Positions 34,255 to 57,169 of a DNA stretch of 64,000 nucleotides are shown here, piece after piece (the first letter of the stretch is position 1; each line of letters begins with the position of its first letter). The notes beneath the pieces were generated by a model that did no database searches, was not told where the DNA came from, and worked only from the letters and a program-made list of their open reading frames with translations. The DNA is from an uncultured Desulfobacter sp. (GTDB lineage Bacteria; Desulfobacterota; Desulfobacteria; Desulfobacterales; Desulfobacteraceae), in NCBI RefSeq assembly GCF_963665355.1, contig NZ_OY762229.1, forward strand, positions 1,984,001 through 2,048,000, written 5' to 3'. The position numbers were made by a program, and so were the translations under genes.

Positions 34255-34539
34255 ATGTCACATGGGCCTTCAACTGATTGGGGAGAGGACAAAGCGATTG
34301 GCTTTAAAACTAAACTTGGATTGTGGTTATTTCTTATTTACGTCTTGGTTTATATCGGATTCATCTGGGTAAACGTTGCCAGTCCGGAAACAATGGAGGT
34401 AAAGGTTTTTGCCGGTCAAAATCTGGCTGTTGTATATGGCTTTGGCCTGATTATTTTGGCCTTTGTAATGGGAATCATTTACGACATTCTTTGCAGCAAT
34501 AAGGAAGATGAACTCAATGTGGAGGATTCTGACAAATGA
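34255..34539 (+). CDS. DUF485 membrane protein of the acetate permease operon
   Basis: 94 residues with two membrane segments (near 22-42 and 60-83) and an acidic C-terminus, the standard DUF485 (YjcH) form. It precedes actP with a four-base overlap (ATGA), the classic yjcH-actP arrangement. It probably assists the symporter; its exact role is not established. The ribosome binding site aaaaaggag is good. Confidence 0.88.
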   Translation: MSHGPSTDWGEDKAIGFKTKLGLWLFLIYVLVYIGFIWVNVASPETMEVKVFAGQNLAVVYGFGLIILAFVMGIIYDILCSNKEDELNVEDSDK

Positions 34540-36458
34540 TATATAATGCATCCCCGTTCGCTGTCGCAATATTTGTAGCTTTTGTACTTGGTGTACTCTG
34601 GCTGTCATCTTATTTTGCAAAAAAAACAACAACATCAGCAGGGTATTATGCTGCCGGCGGAGATATCCACTGGGCTGTAAACGGTATCGCATTCGCAGGC
34701 GATTATCTTTCAGCCGCGTCCTTCCTTGGCATATGCGGGATGATCGCATTCAGCGGATACGACGGATTTTTATATTCCATCGGTTATCTTGCCGGATGGG
34801 TGGTGGCGCTGTTTATTGTGGCCGAGCCGATGAAACGCCTTGGTAAATACACATTCACAGATGCCCTCAACAATAAATACAATTCCCGGGGTATTCACCT
34901 GACTGCGGCGATCAGTACGCTCATCGTCTCGTTATGCTATCTTGTGCCCCAGATGGTGGGTGCCGGAAGTCTTGTGACCCCACTGCTCGGCATGCCCCAT
35001 TACGTAGGGGTTATCCTTGTGGGCGCCATCGTTATATTTATTGTGGCAACGGCAGGAATGGCATCGACCACTTATGTGCAATTCATAAAAGGCGGCCTTC
35101 TGATCATTGCCTCAAGTATTCTTTCCATTGCCATATTTGTGCATGGCATTAACCAGCAGCCTTCTGAAAGTTATCATAAATTTAAATCCATGAATGCCAC
35201 GGTAACCAATGGAGAGGTTACGGCCATTGACAACCCTGAGTACCAGTTGGCCGGCACTCATAATGATGCCAAACATAACAGTTATGTAAAATTAAACAAA
35301 GAGGGTATAAGTTCATGGTGGCATTTGACGGAAAAAGATGGCAATGCCGTTCTTGAAGAGATGCTTTCAGTTGTACACAGCAAAGACGGCCAGGTGCTTT
35401 ACAATGGGGAGCCCAAGGAAGCCCAGAAGTTCTTCCCGGTCGGCCACGCAAGCAAGATCATCGTTGATGGAAAAGAGGTTACGGAAACAGGAGCCCTTAG
35501 CCCGTTTCAATTTCTGGCAACAATAAATGACAGCACCATTGTCCGCTTCGAGAAGGGATCTTTCACTGCCAATGGCGATAAAGTACAGGTCTGGTATCAG
35601 AATCCCACAGCAGGTAAGGACATCATGACGCCCGGATTAAGATTCAAGGTGAAAAAAGGGGCAACCTTTATGTCCAAGCTGGATTTTGTCTCCCTGATGA
35701 TCGCACTGTTCTTCGGGACTTCGGCACTGCCCCATATTCTGATCCGGTATTATACGGTACCCAGCCCCAAGGCCGCGCGTAAGTCAACAATCCTTGCCAT
35801 CACAGCCATCGGTTTCTTTTATGTCCTGACCCTTTTTATGGGGCTGGGGGCAATGGTTACCGGCGTACTTGATCTTCAGAGCAGTAACATGTCCGGACCT
35901 CTTCTGGCTAAATTTTTCGGTGTCGCATTATTCTCTGTCATATCAGCCATTGCATTTGCAACGGTTCTTGGGACAGTGTCCGGACTTATCGTGGCGGCGT
36001 CCGGTGCCGTTGCCCATGACCTGATTTCCAATTATTTCGGAGTTCCATTGACCGATAAGGGTCAGGTAAAAGCGGGTAAAATATCAGCGGTGGTGGTAGG
36101 CGTATTTGCCATATTGCTGGGTATAGCATTCAAAGGGATAAACGTGTCATTCCTTGTGGGTCTGGCTTTTGCGGTTGCCGCATCGGCAAACCTGCCGGCG
36201 ATTATAATGATGCTGTTCTGGAAAGGGACCACTGCAAAGGGTATTTCCGCATCCATCGTTGTGGGTATCATCAGTGCTTTAACAATTATATTGCTATCGC
36301 CCAAGACCTTTGAGGTGTACGGACTTCCCGCTTCAAGCGCTCCCATATCCATGAACAATCCTGGTATCATATCAATACCGCTCAGCTTTTTAACACTGGT
36401 TGTCGTCTCTTTAATGACAAAGAAAGATGAGGTCGGCAGAGAAAAACAAATTGCATAA
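34536..36458 (+). CDS. actP: Cation/acetate symporter, long form
   Basis: 640 residues with the sodium:solute symporter fold; segments such as AGDYLSAASFLGICGMIAFSGYDGFLYSIGYLAGW and GMASTTYVQFIKGGLLI are typical of ActP. It takes up acetate with a cation. It is some 90 residues longer than the ~550-residue E. coli protein. The excess sits in a hydrophilic stretch of about 175 residues (205-380) between two membrane helices, rich in beta-type sequence. That insert may be an extracytoplasmic module. A strong terminator follows. Confidence 0.92.
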   Translation: MIYNASPFAVAIFVAFVLGVLWLSSYFAKKTTTSAGYYAAGGDIHWAVNGIAFAGDYLSAASFLGICGMIAFSGYDGFLYSIGYLAGWVVALFIVAEPMKRLGKYTFTDALNNKYNSRGIHLTAAISTLIVSLCYLVPQMVGAGSLVTPLLGMPHYVGVILVGAIVIFIVATAGMASTTYVQFIKGGLLIIASSILSIAIFVHGINQQPSESYHKFKSMNATVTNGEVTAIDNPEYQLAGTHNDAKHNSYVKLNKEGISSWWHLTEKDGNAVLEEMLSVVHSKDGQVLYNGEPKEAQKFFPVGHASKIIVDGKEVTETGALSPFQFLATINDSTIVRFEKGSFTANGDKVQVWYQNPTAGKDIMTPGLRFKVKKGATFMSKLDFVSLMIALFFGTSALPHILIRYYTVPSPKAARKSTILAITAIGFFYVLTLFMGLGAMVTGVLDLQSSNMSGPLLAKFFGVALFSVISAIAFATVLGTVSGLIVAASGAVAHDLISNYFGVPLTDKGQVKAGKISAVVVGVFAILLGIAFKGINVSFLVGLAFAVAASANLPAIIMMLFWKGTTAKGISASIVVGIISALTIILLSPKTFEVYGLPASSAPISMNNPGIISIPLSFLTLVVVSLMTKKDEVGREKQIA

Positions 36459-36849: not shown

Positions 36850-37190
36850 ATGTCTAGCAATAAAGTTAACAATAGCTGGTTTGTCATCGTTGGTGCTCTT
36901 TTAATTCAGATTGCATTTGGTGTTGTCTGTGCATGGTCTGCTTTTACCAATGTTTTGTCTGATCCTGACGGTGCTTATCAATCCTCGGCACCTCAAATTA
37001 TATGGATTCTATCAGCCGGTCTTTTCTTTTTTGCACAGGCTCTGATCTGGACCGGCATATGTTCTCATTTCCTTTGGTGATAAATGGTTCCCTGATAAAA
37101 AGGAGGCTTCGCCTAGGCACGTCCGCTTGACTGGATATCGTGGGTACTGTGGTTTGGGTCGGCCTCATTCTTATCGGGTTCCGTATAAAT
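36850..37190 (+). pseudogene. Truncated OFA-type (oxalate/formate antiporter-like) MFS transporter
   Basis: After a good ribosome binding site (aaaggaggggg) the frame gives 76 residues: WFVIVGALLIQIAFGVVCAWSAF, the opening helix of OFA-family MFS carriers, and a second helix, then TGA at 37078. Just past the stop another frame reads FGDKWFPDKK, a conserved OFA loop. A further frame holds a hydrophobic piece (TVVWVGLILIGF) near 37150-37190. Most of the ~400-residue carrier has been deleted and the rest is frameshifted. Confidence 0.7.
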
Positions 37191-37250: not shown

Positions 37251-37814
37251 TTAGGGCAGGCCTATCGGGATAATTGCTCTGTTGTATTGTTCGTTGAGGA
37301 CTTCGGCCATGGCAAGATAAATAGCGCTCAGTCCGCAGATGATGCCTTCAAAACCGGCAATGACTCCGATGAGGTGTGAACCTGTCCAGTCTTTGATTGC
37401 GAGAAGAAAAAACAGTACAGTCAGAGATGCAAAGACAAACTGCAGGCCCCTGTTGGATTTTAATGTTCCGAAAAACATGAACATTGTAAAAATGCCCCAC
37501 ATGAACAGATAGCAGGCCATGAATTTTGCAGGCGTAGGCTCTGCCCAGCCGAGTTTGGGCAGCAGAATAAGTGCCACCAGAGTCAACCAGAAGTGGCCAT
37601 AGGATATGAATGCCGTAACGCCAAACGTATTACCTTTTCTAAATTCAAGAATTCCTGCAATAATCTGGGCCAAGCCCCCGTAAAAAAGGCCCATTGCCAG
37701 AATCATGGAACTGATTTCAAAAAATCCGGCATTATGAATGTTCAAAAGTACAGTTGTCATTCCAAAGCCCATTAACCCGAGAGGTCCCGGATTTGCCAAC
37801 GTTTCGTCTCTCAT
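37251..37814 (-). CDS. satP: Acetate uptake transporter, GPR1/FUN34/YaaH family
   Basis: 187 residues with six membrane segments. The N-terminal NPGPLGLMGFGMTT matches the family's NPAPLGL signature, and GLAQIIAGILEFRKGNTFGVTAFISYGHFWL is the central conserved block. It moves acetate/succinate with protons through the inner membrane. It is a second acetate uptake route besides ActP. A consensus sigma-54 promoter lies 238 bases upstream, and the sigma-54 activator gene is the next gene upstream on the same strand. Confidence 0.92.
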   Translation of the reverse strand: MRDETLANPGPLGLMGFGMTTVLLNIHNAGFFEISSMILAMGLFYGGLAQIIAGILEFRKGNTFGVTAFISYGHFWLTLVALILLPKLGWAEPTPAKFMACYLFMWGIFTMFMFFGTLKSNRGLQFVFASLTVLFFLLAIKDWTGSHLIGVIAGFEGIICGLSAIYLAMAEVLNEQYNRAIIPIGLP

Positions 37815-37902
37815 CTTCTTCTCCTGTCTTCAATTAATAAAAAAAACTATAAAAATATTCTTTTTAAAAACACTCTTCTGTAAACCGGCCCGAAGATTAG
37901 GA

Positions 37903-37913
37903 GGGGGGGGGGG
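37903..37913. repeat. G11 homopolymer in the satP leader
   Basis: Eleven consecutive Gs on the plus strand (C11 in the satP transcript), about 90 bases before the satP start and downstream of the predicted sigma-54 start site. Tract slippage could change leader structure. Confidence 0.7.
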
Positions 37914-38051
37914 CAATCCGTCAGGCTATTCACAGAAAATTTTAAAGCATCTGTAATTCTTTTTTAGTCTCTTTCATAACAAAACTTCAGCAGCAGCTTT
38001 TAACAGGTCACAAAATCAGTTTCATTAAATTAGTAATTGATCATTAACAAT

Positions 38052-38067
38052 AGCAATCATTGTGCCA
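38052..38067 (-). promoter_or_regulatory. Consensus sigma-54 promoter for satP
   Basis: On the minus strand TGGCAC (38067-38062), AATGA, TTGCT (38056-38052): an exact match to TGGCAC-N5-TTGCW. It is oriented towards satP, with transcription expected to begin near 38041 and a ~225-base leader. Confidence 0.8.
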
Positions 38068-38118
38068 CAGGTCTCCTGTGTGCCTTGTATATTGGGGTTG
38101 CTGTGCTGAATATTCAGC
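38066..38118. promoter_or_regulatory. Palindromes next to the satP sigma-54 promoter
   Basis: CACAGG-TCT-CCTGTG (38066-38080) touches the -24 element, and GCTGAATATTCAGC (38105-38118) is a perfect 14-base palindrome about 38 bases further upstream. Either could be an operator or activator site. Confidence 0.45.
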
Positions 38119-38343
38119 CATCTACCCATTATCATTATCAATAATACGTATATTTTAGTTCTGGGCCAAAAAAGTGCTGAGGGGCGAAGTCCTGAACAGG
38201 AAATAGATTGTTTTGGGCATTTTTGACCCAAGGAAAACTATATATTTTATAATATGCTGAAATATAATACTAAAAATGCATGGGCGGTTTTGTCACATTT
38301 TGAGACATGTGGATTTTCGGGCCACCATTTCTCCATAAAGTAA

Positions 38344-38368
38344 CACAAAAAGGTGAGCCCTTTTTGTG
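38344..38368. terminator. Hairpin after the sigma-54 activator gene
   Basis: CACAAAAAGG / CCTTTTTGTG perfect ten-base stem with a five-base loop, ~90 bases past the activator stop. It is a possible terminator of the sensor-activator operon; there is no long external T-run. Confidence 0.45.
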
Positions 38369-38458
38369 GAAATAGATTTTTTTCCGGGCTGTCCTTTATG
38401 TGATCGGGGATGGATGGGGCGGCAGTTTGGTGTGGGCAAAGTATTGTGAAAGAAGGGG

Positions 38459-39889
38459 TTAAATGGCGCTTATGAGCCCGTGGGACAACATTTTGCGATA
38501 AAGCGTTCTGCGGGAAATTCCCAGCTTTTCAGCAGCGTTTTCCCTGTGCCACTTGCAGTGATTAAGGGCGGAAAGGATGAGCTGTTTTTCAAACCGGGCA
38601 GCGGCATCTGTCAGCGGAAGGTCTGTTTCTGAATCGGAAACTGAAATGGCATCCGCGGGTGGTTGGGGTTCAATTACCGGGGGGTCAATGTCCGGGAGAG
38701 CCATAAAATTAAGGTGGTTAAAGGTGACGTACCTGCGCAGAATATTCTGCAGCTCCCTGACATTCCCGGGCCAGTGGTAATTGTACAGCTTTTTTATGTC
38801 TTTTCCGGGCAGGGCATCAAAATGAAGGGGCGATTCCATCTGGCTGAAGAAATAATCAGCAAGCAGAGCAAGATCTTCCTTGCGCTCCCGAAGGGGCGGT
38901 ATATTTATGGGGATTACGTAGAGGCGGTAAAAAAAATCACTGCGCAGGCGCCCTTTTTGAACCTCTTCCCATAGATTCTGGTTACTTGCGGCAACAATCC
39001 TGAAATCGGAATGAAGAACTTCCGTGCTCCCGACTGGTGAATACCCCCCGCCTTCTATTGCCCGCAAAAGCTTAACCTGCATATTCAAGGAGAGCTCTCC
39101 AACTTCATCAAGAAACAGGGTACCGCCCTGGACATGGGAAAGAAAACCCTTTTTGTCGTTGTATGCCCCGGTAAACGCCCCTTTTATATGGCCAAAAAAT
39201 TCGTTTTCCAGAAGGGGTTCAGAAATGGCTCCACAGTTGACAGGGAGGAACGGTGCGTCTTTTCTCGGGCTGGTATCGTGTATGGCCCTTGCAACCAACT
39301 CCTTTCCCACCCCAGATTCACCGTGGATCACAACACTGTCTGCACTGGATGCCGCCCGTATAATTATGTCATAGACCTCCTGCATTTTGGTGCATTTCCC
39401 GATGATATTGCAGAACTTGAAGCGCTCACCCATTGATGACTGCAGCAGTGAATACTGTTGCTGGAGTTGCTCTGATTCCCGCTTTATGGCGTCTTCCTGC
39501 ATTTTGCGAAGCGTAATATCCTGAAGGGTCGTGACGGCGCCTGTGATGTTGCCTTTCTCATCAAAGACAGGGGCAGCCATAAAATATATATACTTGGGCT
39601 TTCCGTTGAAATTTTCAAAATAGTCCGTTGCTTCCCAGGCATTGGGCACAATGCTGGACTCGGCCGGATTTTTTGTGCCATATATTTCAAGGAACTTTTC
39701 GTAGTCCTGCTCGACTACAAGATCGGCCAGAATAGGCCGCTTTTTTGGGTAAAAAATCTTCCACTGATGGTCCGTGCCGATAATTTCTTCGGCACGGACG
39801 CCGGTGAGAACTTCACAAGCTTTGTTCCAAACCTTTACTTTGTGGTCGAGTCCTATGGCAAACTGGGCAATTGGTGTATATTCAAGCAC
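38459..39889 (-). CDS. PAS-domain sigma-54-dependent transcription activator
   Basis: 476 residues. A PAS domain (residues ~1-125, AQFAIGLDHKVKVWNKACEVLTG) precedes an AAA+ sigma-54 activator module: GESGVGKELVA, the sigma-54 contact loop GAFTGA, LDEVGELS, and a Fis-type HTH (NAAEKLGISRRTLYRKML). There is no receiver domain, so it is not a classical two-component partner. The frame begins at a GTG 22 bases after the stop of the Cache-CBS-DUF294 gene, so both are one operon. Sequence upstream of the GTG in the same frame also reads like protein (KDPEQYFIV), so a start at a non-standard codon is possible. It probably drives the sigma-54 promoter of satP. Confidence 0.9.
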   Translation of the reverse strand: MLEYTPIAQFAIGLDHKVKVWNKACEVLTGVRAEEIIGTDHQWKIFYPKKRPILADLVVEQDYEKFLEIYGTKNPAESSIVPNAWEATDYFENFNGKPKYIYFMAAPVFDEKGNITGAVTTLQDITLRKMQEDAIKRESEQLQQQYSLLQSSMGERFKFCNIIGKCTKMQEVYDIIIRAASSADSVVIHGESGVGKELVARAIHDTSPRKDAPFLPVNCGAISEPLLENEFFGHIKGAFTGAYNDKKGFLSHVQGGTLFLDEVGELSLNMQVKLLRAIEGGGYSPVGSTEVLHSDFRIVAASNQNLWEEVQKGRLRSDFFYRLYVIPINIPPLRERKEDLALLADYFFSQMESPLHFDALPGKDIKKLYNYHWPGNVRELQNILRRYVTFNHLNFMALPDIDPPVIEPQPPADAISVSDSETDLPLTDAAARFEKQLILSALNHCKWHRENAAEKLGISRRTLYRKMLSHGLISAI

Positions 39890-39911
39890 AATAAAATACT
39901 GCTCCGGGTCC

Positions 39912-42428
39912 TTATAGCTTTAATTGCAGTTCTTCCTGTAATTTAAGCACTTCTTTGATTATGTTTTTAAGGGTTTCCTGTTCTATTGCTGTAAGGTTAT
40001 TTAAAGAGATGGTGTTTGATGGCCAGTCATTATCAAGGATAAGGCTTACCTGCCACTTTATCCGCAGATGCATGAGAAAATTATACATCTTTTCAATTTC
40101 CTGGGCCTTACTTTCCGAAATTAAATCATATGCCATCAAATAATTTAACCGCAGCATACTGTTTGTCTGTTTGATGGAATGAAACAATGCTTTGGCTCTT
40201 AAATACCCGACAATTGGTATCAGGAACTTTTTAATGTCAACGCGTTGATTGTCAAATGCCGGCTTGCTTGCGGCTACTGTTTTAACCAGTTGTCTGAAAA
40301 ATTCATTTTTACCTTTTAATTCTTCATATATAAAATCAATGAGCGCAGATGACAGTCGCTGGCTTCCAAAAACCAAACGCATGTCAAAAAATAGAGAACC
40401 GTCCAGAACATTTAAGCCAACCGGGTTGTTAATCCATGTTGAAAATATTTTTTGCCATTCATCAATATGGTTGCACCACTCGGGATTGCCTGCCATCAGA
40501 TCGCCTTCGCAACGGGCGTAACCTATCTTATGCAGATTTTCATTGATTATTACCGACAGCCCTAAAAAGTATTCTTTGTTATCATCAGACTGCTCTGCAA
40601 AGATTATGGCATTATCCTGGTCGGTTTTAAGTGTTTGTTCTCCCCGCCCTTCACTTCCCATGGATATGAATGCGAACTCACAAGGAGGCGGCCCTGCTTC
40701 GGCTATTGCCATTTCTATCACCCGCTTGTTTATGGCATCGGCAATGGACGTAATTATGCGTGATACACTGCTGATATTATCCGTACTGGTGAATATTGCC
40801 TGTATGAGTACGGGAACCTTATTATAAATATTGCGCATATCACTGATGACATCACAGCTTTGTATCTCCTGTATTAAAAATGTCAGTGAATTGTGCTGCA
40901 TCTCAAGGCACTTAAGATAACTGATGCTGCCATAAATTTTGTTGTTGTGATTGGTGACCATAAGGTGGGAAATACCATGCTGCTTGAATAACAGCACCGC
41001 TTCGTACAGTAGGGCCCCCTGGTTTATACTGATGACCGGCGATGTCATTAGCTTTACCACCGGGCTTTTCATATTCATTCCACCATTCATTAAACGATTT
41101 CGAAGATCTTTATCGGTTACAACCCCTATTGTTTCATCGCTGCTTCTTACACTTATGATGTCGGTGCGCTTATTCTTCATCAATTCAAGAACATCGCCTA
41201 TGGGTGTGTTTATATCACAATGAATGTTTTCATTTACAAGATTTTTAACCGGCTGGTTCATTAATTGAAGAGAAAGCTGAACATCATCAGATAATTTCTG
41301 GGTATCAAGTCTGAGTCTATGCTTTTCGGTGATATTTTTTATAACAACTATGTATGCTGTGCTATCGGATATAGATGCTGTGCTATCCGATTGTTCAACC
41401 TGTGTGACGTACGCTACAATATGCTGGTAACCTGCTTTATATTGGAGCAGTTCTGTTTCAAAAGCGTGGGTCTGGTTGGGATTTTTGATTCCGGAAACCA
41501 TTTCATCCCAGCTGAGTTTAAACAGTTCTGAAAAATCGGTTCCAACCAGTGATCCTGTTTCATTATCAAGCAAGCTGATAAATTTGCTATTGGCAAATAC
41601 AACCTTACGTTCAACGACCATCAAGGTTCCTTCGGTTGATGCTCCCACAAGGCTTTTATATCTTTGATTGGACAATCTTAATTCATTTACAGCATCTTTA
41701 CGTTTTTCCTCAATTATTCTGGTCTGCTTTAATACATAAATAAGAATGACAATGATAATACCGATGATAAGAACCGATATTCTTAACAACTTATCCCGTA
41801 ACCTTTTGATTTCCTGCCTTACATCATCAAGGTATATGCCGGTGCCTACGATCCAGTTCCACTCCTGATAAGCTTTTACATATGATAGTTTAGGCACTTC
41901 GCGGGACGGATCATTTTTCCTTTGCCAATAGTATTGAATTATCCCCTCGCCTTTTTCATTTACTAAACCAACAGAATCAGCAAATAATTTATTCCCATGC
42001 TTGTCAGCATAATCAAGCAGGTTCTTTCCATTTAAGTCCGAACGATATGGATGATTAATCATTATAGGGTCAGTGGTGGTGATCCAAAAATAATTTTTTT
42101 GCTCACTTCCATACCGCATTCTGCCCACCTCCTCGGTGGCCAGAATTTTAGCTTCGGCCAGTGTTATTTTGCCGGCTTTGTATGACTCATCGTGTTCGGC
42201 CAAAACACTCCAGGCTGTATTGGTTAATTCATGAAGCATTTCCTTTTTTCGGTCCATGACACTGCGTTCAAACATCGGGATGATAATTGCGTAAAACGAA
42301 ACAATAAACATGACTATGCTTACGACACCCAGTACCGTTGATACGACTATCCCCGATGTAAACTTTTCACTATTTTCTTCCACGTTATTGTATATCAACG
42401 TCATCAGTTTGTTGCCCATTACTGTCAT
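39912..42428 (-). CDS. Cache-PAS-CBS-DUF294 membrane nucleotidyltransferase sensor
   Basis: 838 residues. Order of parts: TM1 (~28-52); a Cache_2 sensor outside the cytoplasm (~55-205, with MRYGSEQKNYFWITT..HPYRSDLNGK and WNWIVGTGIYLDD); TM2 (~213-235); PAS (~250-365); two CBS motifs (~400-525, DIISVRSSDETIGVVTDKDL and SHLMVTNHNNKIYGSI). The C-terminal part is a DUF294 nucleotidyltransferase with GSEGRGEQTLKTDQDNAIIF (GS..D-x-D metal site) plus a helical DUF294_C domain. It should sense a small molecule outside and signal by nucleotidyl transfer to an unknown target. A seven-residue tandem duplication (SDSTASI/SDSTAYI) lies in the PAS domain. It is co-transcribed with the sigma-54 activator. 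Confidence 0.88.
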   Translation of the reverse strand: MTVMGNKLMTLIYNNVEENSEKFTSGIVVSTVLGVVSIVMFIVSFYAIIIPMFERSVMDRKKEMLHELTNTAWSVLAEHDESYKAGKITLAEAKILATEEVGRMRYGSEQKNYFWITTTDPIMINHPYRSDLNGKNLLDYADKHGNKLFADSVGLVNEKGEGIIQYYWQRKNDPSREVPKLSYVKAYQEWNWIVGTGIYLDDVRQEIKRLRDKLLRISVLIIGIIIVILIYVLKQTRIIEEKRKDAVNELRLSNQRYKSLVGASTEGTLMVVERKVVFANSKFISLLDNETGSLVGTDFSELFKLSWDEMVSGIKNPNQTHAFETELLQYKAGYQHIVAYVTQVEQSDSTASISDSTAYIVVIKNITEKHRLRLDTQKLSDDVQLSLQLMNQPVKNLVNENIHCDINTPIGDVLELMKNKRTDIISVRSSDETIGVVTDKDLRNRLMNGGMNMKSPVVKLMTSPVISINQGALLYEAVLLFKQHGISHLMVTNHNNKIYGSISYLKCLEMQHNSLTFLIQEIQSCDVISDMRNIYNKVPVLIQAIFTSTDNISSVSRIITSIADAINKRVIEMAIAEAGPPPCEFAFISMGSEGRGEQTLKTDQDNAIIFAEQSDDNKEYFLGLSVIINENLHKIGYARCEGDLMAGNPEWCNHIDEWQKIFSTWINNPVGLNVLDGSLFFDMRLVFGSQRLSSALIDFIYEELKGKNEFFRQLVKTVAASKPAFDNQRVDIKKFLIPIVGYLRAKALFHSIKQTNSMLRLNYLMAYDLISESKAQEIEKMYNFLMHLRIKWQVSLILDNDWPSNTISLNNLTAIEQETLKNIIKEVLKLQEELQLKL

Positions 42429-42457
42429 TAGTTTAATCCCATCATTGCAGAAGTCAT

Positions 42458-42676
42458 TTAAGATTTGCGTTTCAAGGTATCAAATTTTATTTTGCCGGCC
42501 GGGTTGCGGCCCGGCACAACACCCCATCCGACAAGAACAGCTCCACCGACAATTTTTCCCAATGTAACAGTTCGTATGTTGGGGGTAAACATAATTTTTC
42601 CAGTTAAGAATACCCGTTATTTCACCTATGGCCAGCAGATGTGCAGCATTCTGGTAAATATGCCATGTTCGTAGCC
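42458..42676 (-). pseudogene. Remnant of a formate/nitrite-type (FNT) transporter, C-terminal part
   Basis: On the minus strand the frame ending at TAA (42460-42458) reads TVTLGKIVGGAVLVGW, which fits the last helix of FNT channels (..IPVTLGNIIGGAVFVG..). Further upstream GYEHGIFTRMLH matches the GFEHSIANM block but is cut by stops before the last helix. The rest of the gene is gone. It sits 30 bases upstream of the Cache-CBS-DUF294 gene on the same strand, so that operon may once have begun with this transporter. Confidence 0.5.
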
Positions 42677-42966
42677 GGGCCGGGCCTTGTTTTTTAGGTT
42701 TTGTTGATGTCTTCTGCCGGATTTGTAAAAATATAACCATTCGTTTTTATAGTAAAATCTTTTGAACTTGGGATAGAAAAGTAACTTCTAATAAATAGTT
42801 CTTGCATTCGTTAAGGGAAAAAGGTAGAGAGTTCTATCTGGATATCGTTGAGGTAGTGGACCATTTTTCTAACCAAGTACTTTTTTTATACCTATGCACC
42901 CGAAAGGTGCATGAGCAGGATTTAACACAAGATCGGCTGGGTAGCTAAGGAGAAGGAGATCAAAAG
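42677..42966. other. Intergenic region upstream of the DUF3360 permease
   Basis: AT-rich, no gene recognised. ATGCACC/GGTGCAT (42894-42912, five-base loop) forms a small hairpin about 55 bases before the permease start. No confident sigma-70 or sigma-54 promoter was found. Confidence 0.4.
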
Positions 42967-44421
42967 ATGGTAGCGCACAATGGAAAATCGTATTACGAGC
43001 AACGTAAGAAAGCAAGCGAGTTTAAGACACGAGCTGAGTATCTTGACCATGAACTGACTATTATGAAATTTCGTCGCTGGCGGGTCAACCTTCCCTTTCG
43101 GGATTACGGCATCGAGATTGAGGACTGTGTGCCGGCCATTGCCGCCACCATTGGAAAGGTTGTAATGGTAACCGCCATGGTCGCTGCCTTTGCTGACCAA
43201 TTTGGTCTTGCGCCCGATTTTATTGCAGAGAACGTCCGGTATGAGATGCTGATTGCAGGTATTTTCTTTGTCCTGCTTTTTTCAGCATTCCTTAATCCGA
43301 ATTCAAACCTTGCGGGCACGCACGGCCCGATGATTCCCCTTATTCCGATTGTCGCCAAGGCCGGCGGACATCCGTTGGCTCTGGGCATCCTCATCGGTGT
43401 GTTCGGCCTTATTCTGGCCATCACAAAAGGCGGTTCCAAGTTGATGAACCTGACCGGAATCGGCGTTCGGGGGGGGCTTTTAATCTACCTGGGTCTTGTT
43501 GGACTTATCGGACAGATCGGCAAACTTGGAAAATGGGCGACAGCAGGTGGCGTCAGCACGGTTTCCTTTGCGGTCATCGCCGCAACCGTGCTTGTCTATG
43601 CTTATCTGGCGCGTATCCAGAAACGCTGGCTGGCCATCCCTCTTTGTTCCGCCATCGCAGGTATCATCGCATTTACGATGGGTGCTGATTTCTCCTTTTC
43701 CACCCCGCCGGGCCTTCCCCATTTTGATCCCATGTGGTGGTGGGGTACTGATACCGGTTGGAAAATGGGGCTTCCGAACCTAGGCAACTTCATTGCCGTT
43801 ATACCCTTCGCCATTCTGGCCGTTGCCATGTGGTCACCGGATTACCTTGGACACCGGGTATTCCAGGAACTCAACTACCCCAAAGGGGCTGAAAACGTTC
43901 TCATGGACGTGGACGATACCATGATGGTCGCATCTGTTCGCCAGGCCATCGGCTCCTGTCTTGGCGGCGGCAATATTGCCTCTTCCTGGGGTACCTATAT
44001 GATTCCCGCAGCCATCGCCAAGCGTCCTATTCCCGGCGGTGCGTTTCTCACCGGCATTTTCTGTGTCGTAGCAGGTATCCTGGGCTACCCCATGGATCTT
44101 GCCATGTGGGAACCTGTTCTGCGGGTGGCACTTATTGTCGGCGTATTTTTGCCATTGCTTGAAGCAGGTATGCAGATGGTCAGCAACCACAAGGATTCCC
44201 AGAGTGCGGGAACCTGCATTTTTGCCTGCGCCTTTGTAAATCCGGTGTTCGGCTGGGCTGCTGCCATGCTTCTGGACAACCTGGGACTCATCGGCGATAC
44301 TGAACGGGCCAAAACACTCTCATGGAATGAGAAACTTGTCATCCCGGGCATCATGTTTCTGGTTTGTACCATTTCCCTTGGGTTGGTGGGTCAGCTTCCC
44401 GGGATACCCGGCATATTCTAA
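42967..44421 (+). CDS. DUF3360 family putative permease
   Basis: 484 residues with an N-terminal cytoplasmic stretch of ~55 residues and 11-13 hydrophobic segments. NLAGTHGPMIPLIPIVAKAGGHPLALGILIGVFGLILAITKGGSKLMNLTG recalls the NCS2/SulP transporter fold, and the overall pattern is that of DUF3360. The substrate is unknown; its place among acetate transporters and sensors suggests a small anion. The ribosome binding site is aaggagaaggag. A strong terminator follows, and the next gene is one of the Cache-DUF294 sensors. Confidence 0.8.
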   Translation: MVAHNGKSYYEQRKKASEFKTRAEYLDHELTIMKFRRWRVNLPFRDYGIEIEDCVPAIAATIGKVVMVTAMVAAFADQFGLAPDFIAENVRYEMLIAGIFFVLLFSAFLNPNSNLAGTHGPMIPLIPIVAKAGGHPLALGILIGVFGLILAITKGGSKLMNLTGIGVRGGLLIYLGLVGLIGQIGKLGKWATAGGVSTVSFAVIAATVLVYAYLARIQKRWLAIPLCSAIAGIIAFTMGADFSFSTPPGLPHFDPMWWWGTDTGWKMGLPNLGNFIAVIPFAILAVAMWSPDYLGHRVFQELNYPKGAENVLMDVDDTMMVASVRQAIGSCLGGGNIASSWGTYMIPAAIAKRPIPGGAFLTGIFCVVAGILGYPMDLAMWEPVLRVALIVGVFLPLLEAGMQMVSNHKDSQSAGTCIFACAFVNPVFGWAAAMLLDNLGLIGDTERAKTLSWNEKLVIPGIMFLVCTISLGLVGQLPGIPGIF

Positions 44422-44460
44422 AAAAACTCACTGCCGACTGGTCTGCGGCAGCTGTTTATA

Positions 44461-44494
44461 AAAGCCCGCCGATGCTATGCATCGGCGGGCTTTT
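44461..44494 (+). terminator. Intrinsic terminator of the DUF3360 gene
   Basis: AAAGCCCGCCGATGC / GCATCGGCGGGCTTTT, a nearly perfect palindrome with T-run, 40 bases after the stop. Confidence 0.9.
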
Positions 44495-44570
44495 ATATAT
44501 TACACTTTGAAACGCAGTCATTTATATGCTAACTTTTTTTGAGTTGGAAAAACAGCTCAAGGAAACTGCA

Positions 44571-47162
44571 ATGAAACTTGAAGAACATGTAAAGCGCACC
44601 GAAGAACTTTTTGGTATACCAGGACAAGATATACACCAATGGCTTGATGGCTTTTTTGATTCGAGCTCATTTGAGAGACTGCTTTCAGGACAAAGCCCTG
44701 CCAACTATGACCCGTATTCCCATAGAAAATTTCGTCATTGCATTGAGGGGTTGGAAGAAGCCTATGAAAAGTTTGAGGGCAAGTATTCCCGTGAAGAGAT
44801 CAGAAATGTGTTTGAGACACATGTAAAGGACGATTACAGGGGATACCTTCCCAAAAGAGAAGACTTTGAAAACGGAACGTTCACTGAGAAATATCACGAT
44901 TCGGCAGAGGCGGAAGATAAAAAAATATTGAGTTTTGAGGAGCTCACCGATTATTTCCAAGGGGAATCCTACAATTATCAAAAGGTGAAAAGCGAAAGAT
45001 TTTTTAATAGCTTCGGCAGTCGTATATTGCTGCCGACCATATTGGCAATAATACTATTTATCAGTTATATATTTTTTTACGTGGTTCCTTTCTTTGAAGA
45101 TAACATGCTGACCCAGAAAAAGCTGATGGTAAAAGAGCTGACAGCAACGGCAGCAAGCGTAATTACACATTATCAGATACTGGAAGAAAAGGGGGAGCTC
45201 ACCCCTGAAGAGGCCGAACAGCGTACCATAGATGCAATAAAAACCATGCGCTATGACAGTCAGGATAAAAATTACTTCTTCATCATTGATATGACCCCGA
45301 AAATGATACTGCACCCGTATCGCCCGGAGCTGACAGGGCAGGATCTGAGCGACTATACAGACGAAGAAAATAAAAGCGGAAAAAAATTGTTCGTTGAGTT
45401 TGTTCGCATTGTAGAAGCCCATGGAGAGGGGTATTTGAGATATCATTGGCAATGGAAAGATAACCCGGAAAAGAGCGCTGAAAAATTATCCTATGTAAAA
45501 GGAATTCCCAAAAGAGGCTGGATTGTCGGTACAGGTATTTACATTAATGATATTGCAGAGGAAAAAGAAGCTTTGCAGCTGCATATTTTCCAGATCGTCG
45601 GCATTACTGTTGACGGGCTGTTTATGCTGCTGGCCTATTTTCTTTTGCAGAGCAGACGCATTGAAAACGACCGTAAAAAGGCTGAAGCGGGTCTGCAGGA
45701 AGTTAAAGACCGCTATCGTGCTCTGGTGGAGTCTTCAAATGAGGGCTACCTTCTGACTGTGGACGGCAGAATTGTATATTCAAATTTCAAGCTGCAACAA
45801 ATGTTGGGCTTTTCCAATACAGAACTTCATCAAACCGATATCTGGAATATTATATTTCCTGATGTGGAAAGTAACAAAAGGTTAAGAGAGCACCTGGGCA
45901 AGGTGTTTGAAAACGACTCTGATTCAGGAGAGTTTGAGGCTGTTGCTGCTGATTCTGTGGGAAATCATCTTGATGTTATCATTACAACATCCCGCATATT
46001 TCTGACTGAAAAACACGGTCATGTTATTTCTTTGCGTCCCATTGTCCGTAGAAGCTATATTGGGGTTGGAACAGCCACAAATATCCCCACTGATTATAAG
46101 CCTATTCATGATTCTCTTATCAAAAAAATCAGGGAGAGCAATCGGATCGGGCATGTTGTCCAAAACATGAATAAGCTGCCGGCAATTATCCGGGAGATGA
46201 TTGATACAGGGGCCAGGGCGCGGGCTTTGCGTACCGTGATTGGTACGACATATGATGAAGTTATCGTTCGCTGTGTCGAGCTTTCAATAGATGAAATTGG
46301 AGAGCCGCCTGTTGCTTTTGCATTTCTCTCCCTTGGAAGCAATGCAAGGCATGAGATGACCATGTTTTCAGACCAGGATAATGCTATAATTTTTCAAGAT
46401 CAAGACACTGAAGAGACAGCGCCTGACAACATAAGGGCATATTTTCTGAAGCTTGGAGACAAGGTATGCAGCAAGCTCAATGCTTCGGGATATCATTTCT
46501 GTCCGGCAGGTATTATGGCCTTACACCCTAAATGGTGTCTTTCTGAAAAAGAGTGGCATAAGAAACTGAAAAATATAATGAACAGCCCAACACCTGACGG
46601 GTTTCTTGAATTTAATGTATTCTTCGACCTGAAATGTACTTATGGAAATATTGATTTAGCAGGCTCAATACATTCACAAATTCAATTGTTAATGAAGAAA
46701 AACCCTTTATTTATGAGTTACTACGCTAAAAATACTTTGGTGCATAAACCGCCGTTCAGTGTTTTTGGACGGTTAAAAACTGAACGGCAGGATGGCGCAA
46801 GAACCTTGAATCTTAAAGAGGCTCTGCGTCCCATTGAGATTTTTGCAAGAATTTATGCTTTGAAGCATGCCATTATTCCCGCAAATACCATTAAAAGGCT
46901 GAATGCCATTAGGGATAAGGAAGAAGTATCCGAAGAATTCTACAAAGAAACTGTCTATGTGTTTAATTATATATGGCGGCTAAGGTTTTTCAATCAGATC
47001 TTTAAACATACCGATTTGCATAAAGTGGATGATGATTTAGACATTGATGAACTCAATGATTTAGAAGTTGAACACCTGGAGCTCGTTATTTCCAGACTCT
47101 CAATGCTCAGAAGAAAAATCAGTCTTGATTTTATTGAAAGCGTTCCGATAGAAAAAATATAA
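44571..47162 (+). CDS. DUF6915-like / Cache-PAS-DUF294 membrane nucleotidyltransferase sensor
   Basis: 863 residues from the ATG matched by its paralog at 50031; an extension to 44526 lacks that support. The N-terminal ~105 residues (EEHVKRTEELFGIPGQDIHQWLDGFFD..HRKFRHCIEG..FETHVKDDYRGYLP) are cytoplasmic and resemble DUF6915. TM1 is at ~151-173, Cache ~175-320, TM2 ~335-360, PAS ~370-480. CBS domains are absent. The DUF294 core reads GSNARHEMTMFSDQDNAIIF: the DxD aspartates remain but the usual GSxGR has become GSNAR. A helical DUF294_C domain ends the protein. Ligand and target are unknown. Confidence 0.85.
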   Translation: MKLEEHVKRTEELFGIPGQDIHQWLDGFFDSSSFERLLSGQSPANYDPYSHRKFRHCIEGLEEAYEKFEGKYSREEIRNVFETHVKDDYRGYLPKREDFENGTFTEKYHDSAEAEDKKILSFEELTDYFQGESYNYQKVKSERFFNSFGSRILLPTILAIILFISYIFFYVVPFFEDNMLTQKKLMVKELTATAASVITHYQILEEKGELTPEEAEQRTIDAIKTMRYDSQDKNYFFIIDMTPKMILHPYRPELTGQDLSDYTDEENKSGKKLFVEFVRIVEAHGEGYLRYHWQWKDNPEKSAEKLSYVKGIPKRGWIVGTGIYINDIAEEKEALQLHIFQIVGITVDGLFMLLAYFLLQSRRIENDRKKAEAGLQEVKDRYRALVESSNEGYLLTVDGRIVYSNFKLQQMLGFSNTELHQTDIWNIIFPDVESNKRLREHLGKVFENDSDSGEFEAVAADSVGNHLDVIITTSRIFLTEKHGHVISLRPIVRRSYIGVGTATNIPTDYKPIHDSLIKKIRESNRIGHVVQNMNKLPAIIREMIDTGARARALRTVIGTTYDEVIVRCVELSIDEIGEPPVAFAFLSLGSNARHEMTMFSDQDNAIIFQDQDTEETAPDNIRAYFLKLGDKVCSKLNASGYHFCPAGIMALHPKWCLSEKEWHKKLKNIMNSPTPDGFLEFNVFFDLKCTYGNIDLAGSIHSQIQLLMKKNPLFMSYYAKNTLVHKPPFSVFGRLKTERQDGARTLNLKEALRPIEIFARIYALKHAIIPANTIKRLNAIRDKEEVSEEFYKETVYVFNYIWRLRFFNQIFKHTDLHKVDDDLDIDELNDLEVEHLELVISRLSMLRRKISLDFIESVPIEKI

Positions 47163-47205
47163 GAAAAAGCCATCTCTCAAAAGAGTGTTTTGAGAGATGG
47201 CTTTT
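47163..47205. terminator. Bidirectional terminator between two Cache-DUF294 genes
   Basis: AAAAAGCCATCTCTCAAAA / TTTTGAGAGATGGCTTTT with a five-base loop, between convergent genes and overlapping the end of each. Confidence 0.88.
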
Positions 47206-49696
47206 ACCTTCCTTTGAATTCCAAATTCAGCTTTGTCTGCATATCGGAAATTAACGAAAATATCTTCTTTAGTGTTGATTTCTCAATTTCGGTCAAGTTC
47301 TCAATGTTGATCGTATTATCAGGTTTTCTGAATTCGGTTAATGCATTGGTCTGGGTCTCGAAACGTAATCCCATTAAAAAATTGTATGCTTGTTTTAACT
47401 CCTCATACATGGGTTTTTGAATCACGTTTTGATTTAATAATGTTTCGAGGCGACGTAACGTATTGGTTTCAAAAAGTTTCCGCTGTAAAGAGAATACTTT
47501 GATAAACGTAACAACCGGAAGAAGTATCTTTTTAATATCGAATGTTTCGTTATCATCACTGGCAATATTTCCAAACATGTTTAACGGGGATCTGTACTGA
47601 ATCACCGTTTGGGCAAGGTGATAAACAAATATGGCTTTTTTATCAATGAGCAGGTTGACATGTTTTCTTAATTCATCTGTGAAAAAGTTGTCACCATAAA
47701 TACACCTGAAATCGAAAAAAACAGCCGTGTCTATGATGTTTTGAGCTTCAGGGGTGTTAATCCAGCTTGTAAACTGCTTTTTCCAATCCGATAAGCTCAG
47801 CGTGTATTTGGGATTTTTGGCCATTATTTCACCTGCACATAACTCATATCCGACATGGGCCAGGTGATTGTTAACGGTTTCAGCAAACTTCAGGAAGTAG
47901 TTTTTAATTTTTGGGGCATTATCGTCCCCAACATCTTCAAAAATGATGGCATTGTCCTGGTCGGTGGCAATGGTCTGTTCTTTTCTTCCTTCGCTGCCCA
48001 ATGCCACAAAAGCAAATCGGCATGGCGCTTTCCCGTGGTCTTCCAATGCAAATGTTATGATGCGATTTGTCATTGCATCGGATACCGATGTAATAATATG
48101 GGTTATCAATTCAGTTTTATTACCGCTTTCCAATAGTGCGTTAACAAGAACCGGAATTTTGTCATAGATCTTTTTAAGTTCATTAACATTTTCGGCATAT
48201 TCAATTTCACTTAGGATGTAGCTTAACGAATTATGCTGGATCTCAAGGATATCTTCATGGCTGAGGACGCCGATAATCTCGTTATTGTCATTTTTTACAG
48301 CCAGGTGGCTGACATTTTGTTTCCTGAATTCTAAAACAACTTCGTAAAGTAAGGCTGTATTTGAAATGCAAATAATTGGGGAGGTCATCACGTCCACAAG
48401 CAGTGATTTGCCATCTTTGCCTTTTGCCAGGACCCTTTTACGCAAGTCACTGTCATTAACAACCCCAAGCATTTTATCATTGTCTGCAATGAAAATGAGG
48501 TTGGTTTTTTTCCGGTCCATTAGAGAGGCGGCTTCAGTCACTGTTGCCTGCAGGTTGCTTTTTACAATTGGCTTTACAAATTGGGAAATGGGCTGATTCA
48601 TTAATGTCAAGGAGCTTTGAAGTTCTCTGCTTAAATTATGGACAATTTTTTCTGTTTGTTTTTTTCGTGACACATCTTTTGTGACCACGACATAGGCTTC
48701 CTGTCCTTCAAATAAAATTCTTGTCACAGAGATCACAACATCATGAAATACATCTTCACCTTGTTTGACCTGGGTCTCAATGGAAATGGATTGGTTGTTT
48801 TTTGCGATGGACTTTAAAACGTCGCTCCATCTGATACTGAAAATATCCTCAAATTGAGACACAACAAGTTCCTGGTATGTTTTACCGGTCAGCTGTTCAA
48901 ACATGTGGTTGGAAAAAATGATCCGGCTGTCTTTGATCATGATTGTGCCTTCTGATGAAGTTTCCACCAGTGTTTTGTATTTTTGCTTTGATTGTAAAAG
49001 ATCACTTTCGGCCTTTTTACGCCAGACTTCAATTTTAAGGCTTTGCATGATTATGAAAGCAAGGATAAGTATAATGGTTGCTGATATTACCAGTGAAATC
49101 CTTGTTAATCTTTCTTTCAACGCACCGATCTCAGCTTGTACATCATCCAGATAGATACCGGTTCCTATGATCCATCCCCACTTTTGAAAACCTTTTACAT
49201 ATGATAACTTTGGGACAATTTGAGTTGAATCGTCTTTCCATTGCCACATGTAGTTGATAAACCCCTCGTTTTTTGTTTTTACAACTTTGATTGCTTCAAT
49301 AAACAGCCTAACCCCGCGGGGATCTTTATATTCATCCAGCATTTTATTATTCAGTTCGGGGCGATAGGGGTGCATGATCATGACGGGTTTCATGTCAGTA
49401 ATCCAGAAATAATCCTTTCCCTGGGTGCCATATCGCATTTTACCAATTTTTTTAGACGCAAGGCGTTGCGCTTCTTCAAGAGTAATAAGAGACGCTCTGT
49501 ATTCATCGTCATATTCTTTTATTAAACTCCATGCTGTATTGGTCAGCTCCCTGATCATTTCCTTCTTTTTGTTCATCATGTTTTCTTCAAATGATGGTAT
49601 TATGATCACATACATTGACGTAATAAAAAGCAAAATTGTGAGTATGGACGGGATGACAATGGAGAAAAAGAAATTGCGTATGACTTTGTTTGACAT
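47204..49696 (-). CDS. Cache-PAS-CBS-DUF294 membrane nucleotidyltransferase sensor
   Basis: 830 residues, same plan as the protein at 39912: TM1 (~10-33), Cache_2 (~35-188, MRYGTQGKDYFWITDMKPVMIMHPYRPELN..WGWIIGTGIYLDD), TM2 (~198-220), PAS (~240-350), two CBS motifs (~385-510, LIFIADNDKMLGVVNDSDL and SHLAVKNDNNEIIGVLSHED). The DUF294 core is GSEGRKEQTIATDQDNAIIF, followed by the helical C-terminal domain. The catalytic motif is intact. It converges on the gene at 44571 and is divergent from the one at 50031. It has no regulator gene of its own. Confidence 0.86.
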   Translation of the reverse strand: MSNKVIRNFFFSIVIPSILTILLFITSMYVIIIPSFEENMMNKKKEMIRELTNTAWSLIKEYDDEYRASLITLEEAQRLASKKIGKMRYGTQGKDYFWITDMKPVMIMHPYRPELNNKMLDEYKDPRGVRLFIEAIKVVKTKNEGFINYMWQWKDDSTQIVPKLSYVKGFQKWGWIIGTGIYLDDVQAEIGALKERLTRISLVISATIILILAFIIMQSLKIEVWRKKAESDLLQSKQKYKTLVETSSEGTIMIKDSRIIFSNHMFEQLTGKTYQELVVSQFEDIFSIRWSDVLKSIAKNNQSISIETQVKQGEDVFHDVVISVTRILFEGQEAYVVVTKDVSRKKQTEKIVHNLSRELQSSLTLMNQPISQFVKPIVKSNLQATVTEAASLMDRKKTNLIFIADNDKMLGVVNDSDLRKRVLAKGKDGKSLLVDVMTSPIICISNTALLYEVVLEFRKQNVSHLAVKNDNNEIIGVLSHEDILEIQHNSLSYILSEIEYAENVNELKKIYDKIPVLVNALLESGNKTELITHIITSVSDAMTNRIITFALEDHGKAPCRFAFVALGSEGRKEQTIATDQDNAIIFEDVGDDNAPKIKNYFLKFAETVNNHLAHVGYELCAGEIMAKNPKYTLSLSDWKKQFTSWINTPEAQNIIDTAVFFDFRCIYGDNFFTDELRKHVNLLIDKKAIFVYHLAQTVIQYRSPLNMFGNIASDDNETFDIKKILLPVVTFIKVFSLQRKLFETNTLRRLETLLNQNVIQKPMYEELKQAYNFLMGLRFETQTNALTEFRKPDNTINIENLTEIEKSTLKKIFSLISDMQTKLNLEFKGR

Positions 49697-50030
49697 GACG
49701 TATCAGTTCTTTAGTTAGAGGTTAAATTCCCGCTATGCTATGGTTAAACATATCGGTTAAACATTCCTGATGGATTAACTGCAAATTCAGTCGATCTGGA
49801 TAAAGTGTAAAAGACATCTATTTTTATTATAGTTTATTAATAAATTGACAGCCAAGGTAAAGTCAAGGATTAATTATTCAACCATCAGAATTCCGGTTTC
49901 CTGAAAAGTCACCCGGAACAAATGTTTTGGGGAACATATCTTTTGTTTCAACAGACTTTAAAAAGTTGCCTGTTATATGTTAACTATCGACCTTAGAATT
50001 CCTGTGAAAAAATAGATCAAGGGTGCTGAT
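49697..50030. other. Divergent control region between two Cache-DUF294 genes
   Basis: 334 AT-rich bases without a gene. GGTTAAACAT occurs twice, at 49742-49751 and 49755-49764, 13 bases apart, near the minus-strand gene. TTGACA at ~49848 could serve the plus-strand gene, though no good -10 is placed. Confidence 0.4.
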
Positions 50031-55700: not shown

Positions 55701-56015
55701 TTTTGCAATGATTCTGTTCCAGGAGGCGGCGGGATTGATCTCCCCTGAGTATAAAAATCGTTTTTTCCAGTCTGTCAGAATCTGGGGATTATTGAGAACA
55801 TTCATCCGTTTTTGTTTTCTTTTCATGAAAAAGATAAAGAAGACAAAATTTTTCAGAAAAGAGATCAGGGAATTGGGCTGTTTGTACTGGTTGAGTCTGG
55901 ATCTGACAAATGCCTTGGTGTCGTAAGTCCAGGTTTCCACCATGGTTTCAATTTTATTAATGGCCTCTTCGGGCAGGACAATATGTTTTTTTTCCTTTGT
56001 GGGTCGTTTGGCCAT
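52707..56015 (-). CDS. Double AAA+ ATPase with C-terminal Lon-type protease domain
   Basis: 1102 residues. A hydrophobic patch at ~50-64 (LISFLKNFVFFIFF) may touch the membrane. The first AAA module has EGTSGSGKSA (~163-172) and a long insert with glycine-serine run; the second has GPPGSGKT (~514-521), VIFFDEGD and TTNRLDILDPALIRSKR, similar to FtsH/Cdc48 modules. The last third holds GGPSAGYALAL with the probable Lon-type catalytic serine (~919) and IGGHRKKTEK with the candidate lysine. This order differs from classical Lon, LonB and FtsH. The upstream gene in the operon encodes an SPFH protein, so a membrane-linked protease complex like HflKC-FtsH is likely. Confidence 0.85.
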   Translation of the reverse strand: MAKRPTKEKKHIVLPEEAINKIETMVETWTYDTKAFVRSRLNQYKQPNSLISFLKNFVFFIFFMKRKQKRMNVLNNPQILTDWKKRFLYSGEINPAASWNRIIAKELTTAEYHYLIAVLDRELTNLHVPVELEKIFEKIYRVHIRKEHLEDPDVPKAPIMLIEGTSGSGKSATAREALEKVVFRNEVIPTVDWRKKRDEILGGYSLFTQLEDVDPEFAMQIAKKKKTDFYRRLAKIPILKRIFRKRIMNNLTDFEDLGFLVDMSVITPNDYQTALSGEPGNFFKRAMGHPKVTSIRHIEEAHSAFGKSGSGSGGDGTEKQQRTLIDTSNIILDEIIDGRRDLFLIATTDQAHRFDAAIYRRFVEKGVIIDISKYWMNRENLKKIIILEIQRNQIPTKFKPDSEKLDHAADKIYAIFRERSLKITPAYVRKLIESVISMQGDFVLEFLDDAVLIRNAFQLVAKNVYGELYAKVVDQMDRNLNWEEYVGDIKDKFSEMANNCFHYGVSEDKGVVLTGPPGSGKTYLVRTWLSSNTNVHDIATSPSALQDPSSPVHGAVSNLEKVYDIAKMIAPTVIFFDEGDALAPKRSGTGGHPSDALTNKFLNIIDGEIPLNKVFTVLTTNRLDILDPALIRSKRLKTLEISGHMRQKDVFEIIKKQFENVPHKRQFEVEKIIETAQGICNTPADYTSFTEKAIALCSTEFKVLLKLRDLKSSTQDEKYNFVKLNFKTVLGILDALKAPPLIKSKIKNDLKNFVEHYGKILESVDHITREQDYPLVVAHLESARREISQSPVRKGSIQLNEFLEAELSQEPQVGFIIGVGANDMTGMLLPIATSLTGRVENASIIVTGAVATPSAQTAQMDMAVKMTKQSALEALTMVKNYIQSLSPDISIPWLFGDFLQRYSIHHQLLSASYNVGGPSAGYALALNTLSALLQIPLCFDFGITGAPWTKGVKKNEIGGSVIIGGHRKKTEKVLLYLRRMYMPMLNYQDLEPEFLIGYWKRDKDIIAVTHFADLMPEVLFLDEAHNKMNEELIENRIKYNMERYYDSEKTSNLQEDIVQTKKIMRKRAEEEILKRVNAIRFYLQDTGREKYISHEKIFQTYI

Positions 56016-57148: not shown

Positions 57149-57169
57149 ACCTGCTCCTTTGCCGTTCAT

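Follow-up and report, generated by a model that had tools for sequence, protein, structure and literature searches.

A probable sigma-54 satP switch beside a putative acetate-sensing membrane nucleotidyltransferase in Desulfobacter

Our subject is a 64-kb stretch of DNA, called the window throughout, within the 5.64-Mb genome of an uncultured Desulfobacter species, and more particularly three genes on its minus strand: satP, for an acetate uptake transporter; the gene for EBP1, a sigma-54 activator of the enhancer-binding protein (EBP) type; and the gene for S1, a membrane sensor that ends in a nucleotidyltransferase domain. An earlier note on this DNA had described these genes and a promoter pointing at satP, and all of them are real. 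The features that carry the argument are listed here in order of position, with protein domains called by Pfam at E<=0.001 and equivalog cut-offs taken from NCBIfam.

37251..37814, minus strand: satP, the target gene, encoding an acetate uptake transporter of 187 aa (PF01184, E 1.6e-41)
37948..37973, minus strand: leader element AAGAGACTAAAAAAGAATTACAGATG in the satP 5' untranslated region (UTR)
38067-38052, minus strand: sigma-54 -24/-12 promoter TGGCACAATGATTGCT, an exact match to TGGCAC-N5-TTGCT
38213..38231, minus strand: upstream element B, TTGGGTCAAAAATGCCCAA, an instance of the conserved element GNGNCA-N5-GYY and a probable activator site
38280..38297, minus strand: upstream element A, TGTGACAAAACCGCCCAT, which repeats the pattern of element B and is likewise a probable activator site
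38459..39889, minus strand: EBP1, a one-component sigma-54 activator of 476 aa with a GTG start, PAS-AAA-Fis helix-turn-helix (HTH) by Pfam
39912..42428, minus strand: S1, a membrane sensor of 838 aa, Cache-(PAS-like)-CBS-CBS-DUF294-DUF294_C (Pfam)

The product of satP scores above the cut-off of the NCBIfam equivalog model PRK10659, 'acetate uptake transporter' (298.7 against 297 bits), and likewise above that of AceTr_1, which places it among the SatP/AceTr transporters. EBP1 has a PAS domain, Sigma54_activat (PF00158, 205.5 bits), an AAA lid and HTH_8 (PF02954, E 3.7e-14), and its translation contains GAFTGA, which we take to be the sigma-54 interaction motif; an AAA+ domain with GAFTGA, joined to a Fis-type HTH, makes it a sigma-54 enhancer-binding protein. 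The same scan gave no receiver (PF00072) in EBP1, just as the earlier note had read it, so that it is not of the response-regulator kind; receivers were found in the activators of three loci outside the genus (L138, L139 and L145).

The promoter was found where the earlier note had seen it, and TGGCAC-N5-TTGCW has no other exact match in the window. At up to one mismatch the window holds three matches against a chance expectation of 3.08, and the whole genome has 19 exact matches against one for the pattern read backwards. One of the 19 precedes a second satP, directly after a second copy of the activator. Transcription of satP is predicted to start near 38041, about 227 nt before its ATG.

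Relatives of EBP1 with at least 76% identity occur in 10 of the 12 genus genomes searched, the other two (G028 and G058) yielding no activator at E<=1e-100; the activator's relatives with a name belong to Desulfobacter vibrioformis, D. latus, metagenome-assembled genomes (MAGs) labelled D. postgatei and one Desulfobacterales MAG. Our comparison drew on 14 fetched regions, the window and contigs L013, L014 and L016, which make 18 distinct loci with both activator and satP, 12 of a first type and six of a second, with L010, L011 and L015 (repeats of G022 and G007) and L012 (which is without satP) left out. The exact promoter lies between activator and satP in all 18, and in G059, added as a nineteenth locus, it differs by one base, a degree of conservation of the -24/-12 boxes across relatives that befits a sigma-54 promoter. 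Further satP loci were viewed and not counted: the promoter is exact in L080, L085 and L095 (probably repeats of counted MAGs) and a one-base variant in L099, and in L090 215 nt upstream of satP are present. An insertion puts 1797 nt between the promoter of G016 and satP; in this genome, transposase-like frames recognised by eye (L068, 4188-5571 and 8478-11029) separate the promoter from satP and also precede the activator. Elsewhere, contig 2 of G000 has two exact sigma-54 sites on the same strand, at 152756 and 153179, 423 bp apart.

Further upstream, GNGNCA-N5-GYY appears twice in all 12 first-type loci, the copies being 66-69 nt apart (67 nt in the window, where element A is the more distant) and at about -230 and -162 relative to the -24 box. 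It appears once in five of the six second-type loci, at -252 to -266, and the sixth has a visible variant that the pattern missed. Shuffled upstream pieces of the same composition gave 0.01-0.05 elements per locus, a control that is a guide only, since the pattern was derived from the loci in which it was counted. In a column permutation, which ignores relatedness and puts the 95% level at 10 and the 99.9% level at 13 conserved columns, the element A block (15 of 18 columns) and the -24/-12 block (15 columns) exceed the 99.9% level. The element B block, with eight conserved columns, and the left part of the element A palindrome, with nine, fall below the 95% level, and both results count against the switch as read here. 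In second-type loci the number of conserved columns is too high for the permutation to be informative. We consider the paired upstream elements to be probable activator sites. In addition, a stricter pattern for element B, TTGGGTCA-N5-GCCCRA with up to one mismatch, has two matches in the genome (reversed control three), both at satP promoters, where they are found by construction; its absence from the rest of the genome suggests a dedicated satP switch.

A full palindrome, TGTCNCA-N3-TGNGACA, was also considered as the upstream site, and has one exact match in the genome, at satP, with 16 one-mismatch hits against 20 in the reversed control; it was dropped in favour of the paired element because it is complete in only two of the 12 first-type loci. 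As for the satP leader, the pattern of the element at 37948..37973 recurs in seven of 12 first-type and none of six second-type loci, with a close variant visible in L154. An 11-codon leader peptide in the 5' UTR was set aside, its ATG and frame, judged by eye, not being kept at all loci.

That the neighbouring activator controls satP through sigma-54, as the earlier note had supposed, is well supported in comparisons by the conserved promoter, the paired elements and the duplication of the activator-satP unit within the genome, where the second activator is 77% identical to EBP1. The PAS of the second-copy activators is similar too, with 80-85% identity across the 142 residues compared. EBP1 would bind the two like elements, some 145-230 bp upstream of the -24/-12 promoter, and ATP hydrolysis by its AAA+ domain would let sigma-54 RNA polymerase transcribe satP, a step with good comparative support. 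The PAS domain presumably sets the activity of this one-component activator.

Six EBPs of Desulfovibrio vulgaris are one-component PAS sigma-54 activators (PMC4641369), and they resemble EBP1 in their PAS input, sigma-54 output and want of a receiver; the target here is satP, whereas the sections of that paper drawn on name no acetate transporter as the target of a PAS activator. E. coli actP is an experimentally confirmed RpoN target (PMC8743547), a precedent that lowers the novelty of the promoter part. Both are sigma-54 promoters of acetate transporters, ActP there and SatP here, and the excerpt of PMC8743547 used mentions neither a dedicated PAS activator nor a Cache-DUF294 sensor for actP.

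What, then, might the sensor contribute? S1 is one of four Cache-DUF294 paralogues that lie within 13 kb (39912-52613) on alternating strands, the others being:

44526..47162, plus strand: S2, a Cache-PAS-DUF294 paralogue with an N-terminal extension, CBS unmatched
47204..49696, minus strand: S3, a Cache-PAS-CBS-DUF294 paralogue with 7/7 acetate-pocket residues
50031..52613, plus strand: S4, a Cache-PAS-DUF294 paralogue with an extra N-terminal region, CBS unmatched

Pfam finds sCache_2, CBS in two stretches, DUF294 and DUF294_C in S1. Of the Cache-PAS-CBS-DUF294 architecture that the earlier note had given it, the Cache, CBS and DUF294 parts hold, but no PAS was detected in S1 at the Pfam threshold; the three paralogues do have PAS, and from them we infer a PAS-like linker in S1.

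The Cache domain of S1 spans about residues 50-212, and of the solved structures PscD (5g4y) and 4k08, the latter taken to be Adeh_3718, come nearest to it in sequence. PscD has seven propionate contacts, identical in McpP and Adeh_3718, and acetate binding at 31 uM is reported in the same paper (PMC5062169); all seven contacts are identical in S1 and S3. The full set is shared by S1 with nine aligned orthologues, by S3 with six and by seven full-length Cache-DUF294 proteins from distant loci; proteins of the S2 and S4 types keep six, with Phe replacing Trp92. Those neighbouring Cache kinases that aligned (L139, L145 and L150) also have all seven, in a scoring restricted to proteins with the search motif, from which a partial S3 and the L138 kinase, for example, fell out. 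As a control, 32 sCache_2 domains were found in the genome and 30 scored, of which four have 7/7 (S1, S3 and one domain each in two other proteins) and the remaining 26 have one to six. The signature is selective, not unique, and it makes S1 and S3 probable C2-C3 carboxylate sCache_2 sensors. A pocket in S1 that fits acetate or another C2-C3 acid is well supported by these residues, in line with the earlier suggestion that the sensor detects acetate or a related acid, and it is in its periplasmic Cache domain that S1 would bind such a ligand.

The other end of the protein is where it parts from known receptors. PscD and Adeh_3718 are listed in the available portion of PMC5062169 as chemotaxis transducers, whereas S1 ends in a nucleotidyltransferase. 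The Cache regions of S1-S4 match the N-terminal part of the NCBIfam model for MctS, a monocarboxylate sensor kinase, at 82-96 bits (S1 90.7) against a cut-off of 700, and yet these are sensors without a kinase; neither HisKA nor HATPase appeared in the Pfam scan of S1, which thus lacks the kinase output of MctS. Its DUF294 match comes with an intact nucleotidyltransferase motif, G591, S592, D603, D605 and N606 with the later D682, which we take to be catalytic residues, and these are invariant in 29 of 29 aligned output domains (27 from Cache-DUF294 proteins and two from proteins without Cache). This invariance argues for an active enzyme as the output of S1. We suppose, from the intact motif, that the DUF294 domain would transfer a nucleotide to a partner or make a nucleotide product, while the CBS domains probably bind, and read, adenine nucleotides. 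DUF294_C is grouped with GlnD/GlnE in the text consulted of PMC3710099, and by that grouping the C-terminal domain of S1 may be GlnD/GlnE-like.

Some of the same parts are found in Pflu5625, which belongs to the CrbS/R acetate regulon and combines a cAMP-binding domain with CBS and nucleotidyltransferase domains; a prediction of nucleotidylation is cited for it, and a mutant had no phenotype (PMC5715377, in part). It shares with S1 the CBS and nucleotidyltransferase domains and the link to acetate, but has a cAMP-binding domain where S1 has a Cache input; CrbS, moreover, is an SLC5-kinase, and the acs promoter there is RpoD-type, unlike the sigma-54 satP system described here (PMC5715377). As for other sources, the portion of PMC4822843 covered has neither DUF294 nor CBS, those of PMC11887813 and PMC12316311 do not describe this arrangement, and that of PMC12316311 is without satP or actP. 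In the open-licence literature we found no paper that joins Cache with DUF294 or describes a sigma-54 satP switch.

The tie between S1 and EBP1 is a more delicate matter. The earlier note had placed the two genes in one operon, which suits this strain, where the gap is 25 nt counting the sensor stop codon, but not its relatives, since at eight other loci the gap is 162, 162, 163, 322, 332, 431, 1309 and 1320 nt (in the 332-nt case, MAG L012, the sensor gene is incomplete, lying at the edge of its contig). A sigma-70-like TTGACA-N17/18-TA, counted without a chance control, occurs in seven of these eight gaps, G007 giving no match, and separate expression is therefore likely. Several relatives resemble the window in the few bases just before the activator start, so that the window has probably lost the rest of the gap. 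A conserved sensor-activator operon is ruled out by these gaps and the motifs in them; co-transcription of S1 and EBP1 is plausible in this strain and likely not ancestral.

A looser association persists, in that eight of the 11 genomes with a first-type activator have S1 upstream on the same strand (two of them with a small gene between). Several observations, however, weigh against a functional tie. The short gap is peculiar to this strain and the sigma-70-like motifs recur elsewhere; in two of the 11 genomes (G033 and G038) S1 is some 4 kb away on the opposite strand, with S4 between; and G016 keeps EBP1 and the promoter with no gene of Cache-DUF294 size and no such sensor nearby (its three DUF294 genes have frames of 630, 630 and 879 aa). 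In addition, no sensor match lies in the 1.6 kb upstream of EBP1 on MAG contig L013, and none of five second-type 20-kb activator/satP regions matches the window sensors. It is thus quite conceivable, if somewhat less so than the alternative that we favour, that EBP1 works alone, its PAS domain sensing an intracellular signal, and that S1, though a neighbour, is independent of it and has a different output: the second-copy activators resemble EBP1 in their PAS and have a satP promoter of their own with no Cache-DUF294 gene nearby, the promoters of S1 and EBP1 are likely to be separate in relatives, and the arrangement is flipped in two genomes. Set against this, S1 and EBP1 stay within about 4 kb in 10 of the 11 EBP1 genomes, sensors of the S1 kind are also found next to acetate transporters in other families, and the only S1-less genome also has an interrupted promoter-satP link. 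G016 is indeed not clean proof of a sensor-independent activator, because it is transposase-like frames that interrupt that link.

Searching 395 genomes of the phylum at E<=1e-60, and scoring the best two candidates in each, gave a partial list with at least eight Cache-DUF294 loci outside the genus. The neighbourhood with acetate transporters that the earlier note led one to expect is kept at five of the eight, which have an acetate- or monocarboxylate-type transporter next door: SatP in L138, ActP in L139, L141 and L145, and an MFS protein, presumably an oxalate/formate transporter, in L140 (named by eye and similarity) and L145 (domain-scanned). The neighbouring ActP of G397, G136 and G274, and the SatP of G073, are the sole matches in their own genomes, and G163 has several ActP-like matches elsewhere in its genome. 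The neighbourhood is not kept at the other three, L142, L143 and L144, where the fetched stretch has no transporter; the only ActP match of G169 and of G198, and the SatP of G153, lie on another contig, and these cases count against the reading that we prefer. Five of the eight loci (G397, G136, G169, G198 and G274) come from one family, so that independent lineages are few.

A further complication is that in three of the eight (L138, L139 and L145) the sensor is accompanied by a Cache histidine kinase and a sigma-54 response regulator, and the version with a PAS activator and no kinase is therefore a Desulfobacter variant. In G073, for example, a Cache kinase is followed in turn by a sigma-54 response regulator, a one-mismatch -24/-12 site 79 nt upstream of satP, satP itself, a Cache-only frame and the Cache-DUF294 gene. 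Such loci bear on the proposal of the earlier note that S1 nucleotidylates EBP1 directly, in place of a histidine kinase, which we think improbable. The proposal has to its credit the intact motif, invariant in 29 of 29, the adjacency of S1 and EBP1, and the fact that no histidine kinase was recognised by eye among the listed open reading frames of the window; but kinase and Cache-DUF294 gene occur together in L138, L139 and L145, so that Cache-DUF294 is not a simple replacement for a kinase, the second-copy activators have no neighbouring sensor, and the open-licence literature yielded no precedent.

Other partners recur at the distant loci. In four of the eight (L139, L141, L142 and L143) the end of the Cache-DUF294 gene shares 1-4 nt with a gene for a calcineurin-like phosphoesterase (domain confirmed by scan in L139 and L141), and an exonuclease-type gene adjoins cNMP-CBS-DUF294 genes in L148, L149 and L153 (domain scanned in L153). 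Six annotated plasmid records, picked non-randomly, for spread, from 61, have an exonuclease gene near DUF294 in five cases, one of them broken by an insertion; in four, the DUF294 gene directly follows that of an acetate or solute symporter, which favours a tie of the family to acetate uptake. The phosphoesterase and exonuclease neighbours lend some weight to the idea that the action of S1 is post-transcriptional, directed at the transporter or at acetate activation, with a nucleotidylated target that the phosphoesterase resets. We nevertheless find the idea doubtful as an account of the window, since homologues of the phosphoesterase and exonuclease partners were not found there, in L066-L074 or in L154.

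The acetate cluster has other members, which are as follows:

34255..36458, plus strand: a DUF485 and ActP-type acetate symporter pair, in the same cluster as satP (domain and NCBIfam matches)
36850..37080, plus strand: a small protein of 76 aa, like the N-terminus, or first helices, of an MFS transporter
42967..44421, plus strand: a DUF3360 membrane protein, divergent from S1 (PF11840, E 2.9e-241), whose role as a permease is assumed

The small protein, for which the Pfam scan gave no match, is 30% identical to the N-terminus of the L140 MFS protein (E 1e-7); a search of 13 first-type loci turned it up in 11, all but the MAG contigs L013 and L016, and five second-copy regions gave none. The whole cluster as one sigma-54 regulon is unsupported: the 450 nt before each of ActP, DUF3360, EBP1 and S1-S4 in the window contain no sigma-54 site, even with two mismatches allowed, and six relatives, scanned for two to six cluster genes each, gave as sole hit a two-mismatch site before S3 in L066. 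Beyond S4, and adjoining it, are an AAA/Lon-like gene and an SPFH-type gene (52707-57169, minus strand), which are neighbours in MAG locus L016 too, and a cobalamin riboswitch lies at 12096-12300 on the plus strand, before a CobT-like gene; all three genes were named by eye.

Weighing all this, we lean towards a satP switch that works by sigma-54 and lies next to a membrane nucleotidyltransferase which senses acetate and tunes its uptake. S1 would most likely tune the same acetate-uptake module as EBP1, either through EBP1 or through the transporter; the link from S1 to the activator, and nucleotidylation as its chemistry, we put forward as a hypothesis. More broadly, and quite tentatively, Cache-PAS-CBS-DUF294 proteins might form a distinct transmembrane class, a 'receptor nucleotidyltransferase', in which an acid outside would drive nucleotidyl transfer inside, CBS domains would gate it by adenine-nucleotide status and, in some lineages, a phosphoesterase or exonuclease would act as eraser; in Desulfobacter its output would reach satP through the PAS sigma-54 activator, and transcription would be gated by acetate without a phosphorelay.

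DUF294 genes lie beside acetate or solute transporters in several lineages, and no paper that we found in the open-licence literature names their target or product. Here DUF294 is fused to a recognisable acetate receptor and sits by an apparently single-purpose promoter, which would offer the family a likely input together with a readout that can be measured. Since Desulfobacter species reduce sulfate and oxidise acetate, the control of their acetate uptake bears on carbon flow in marine sediments.

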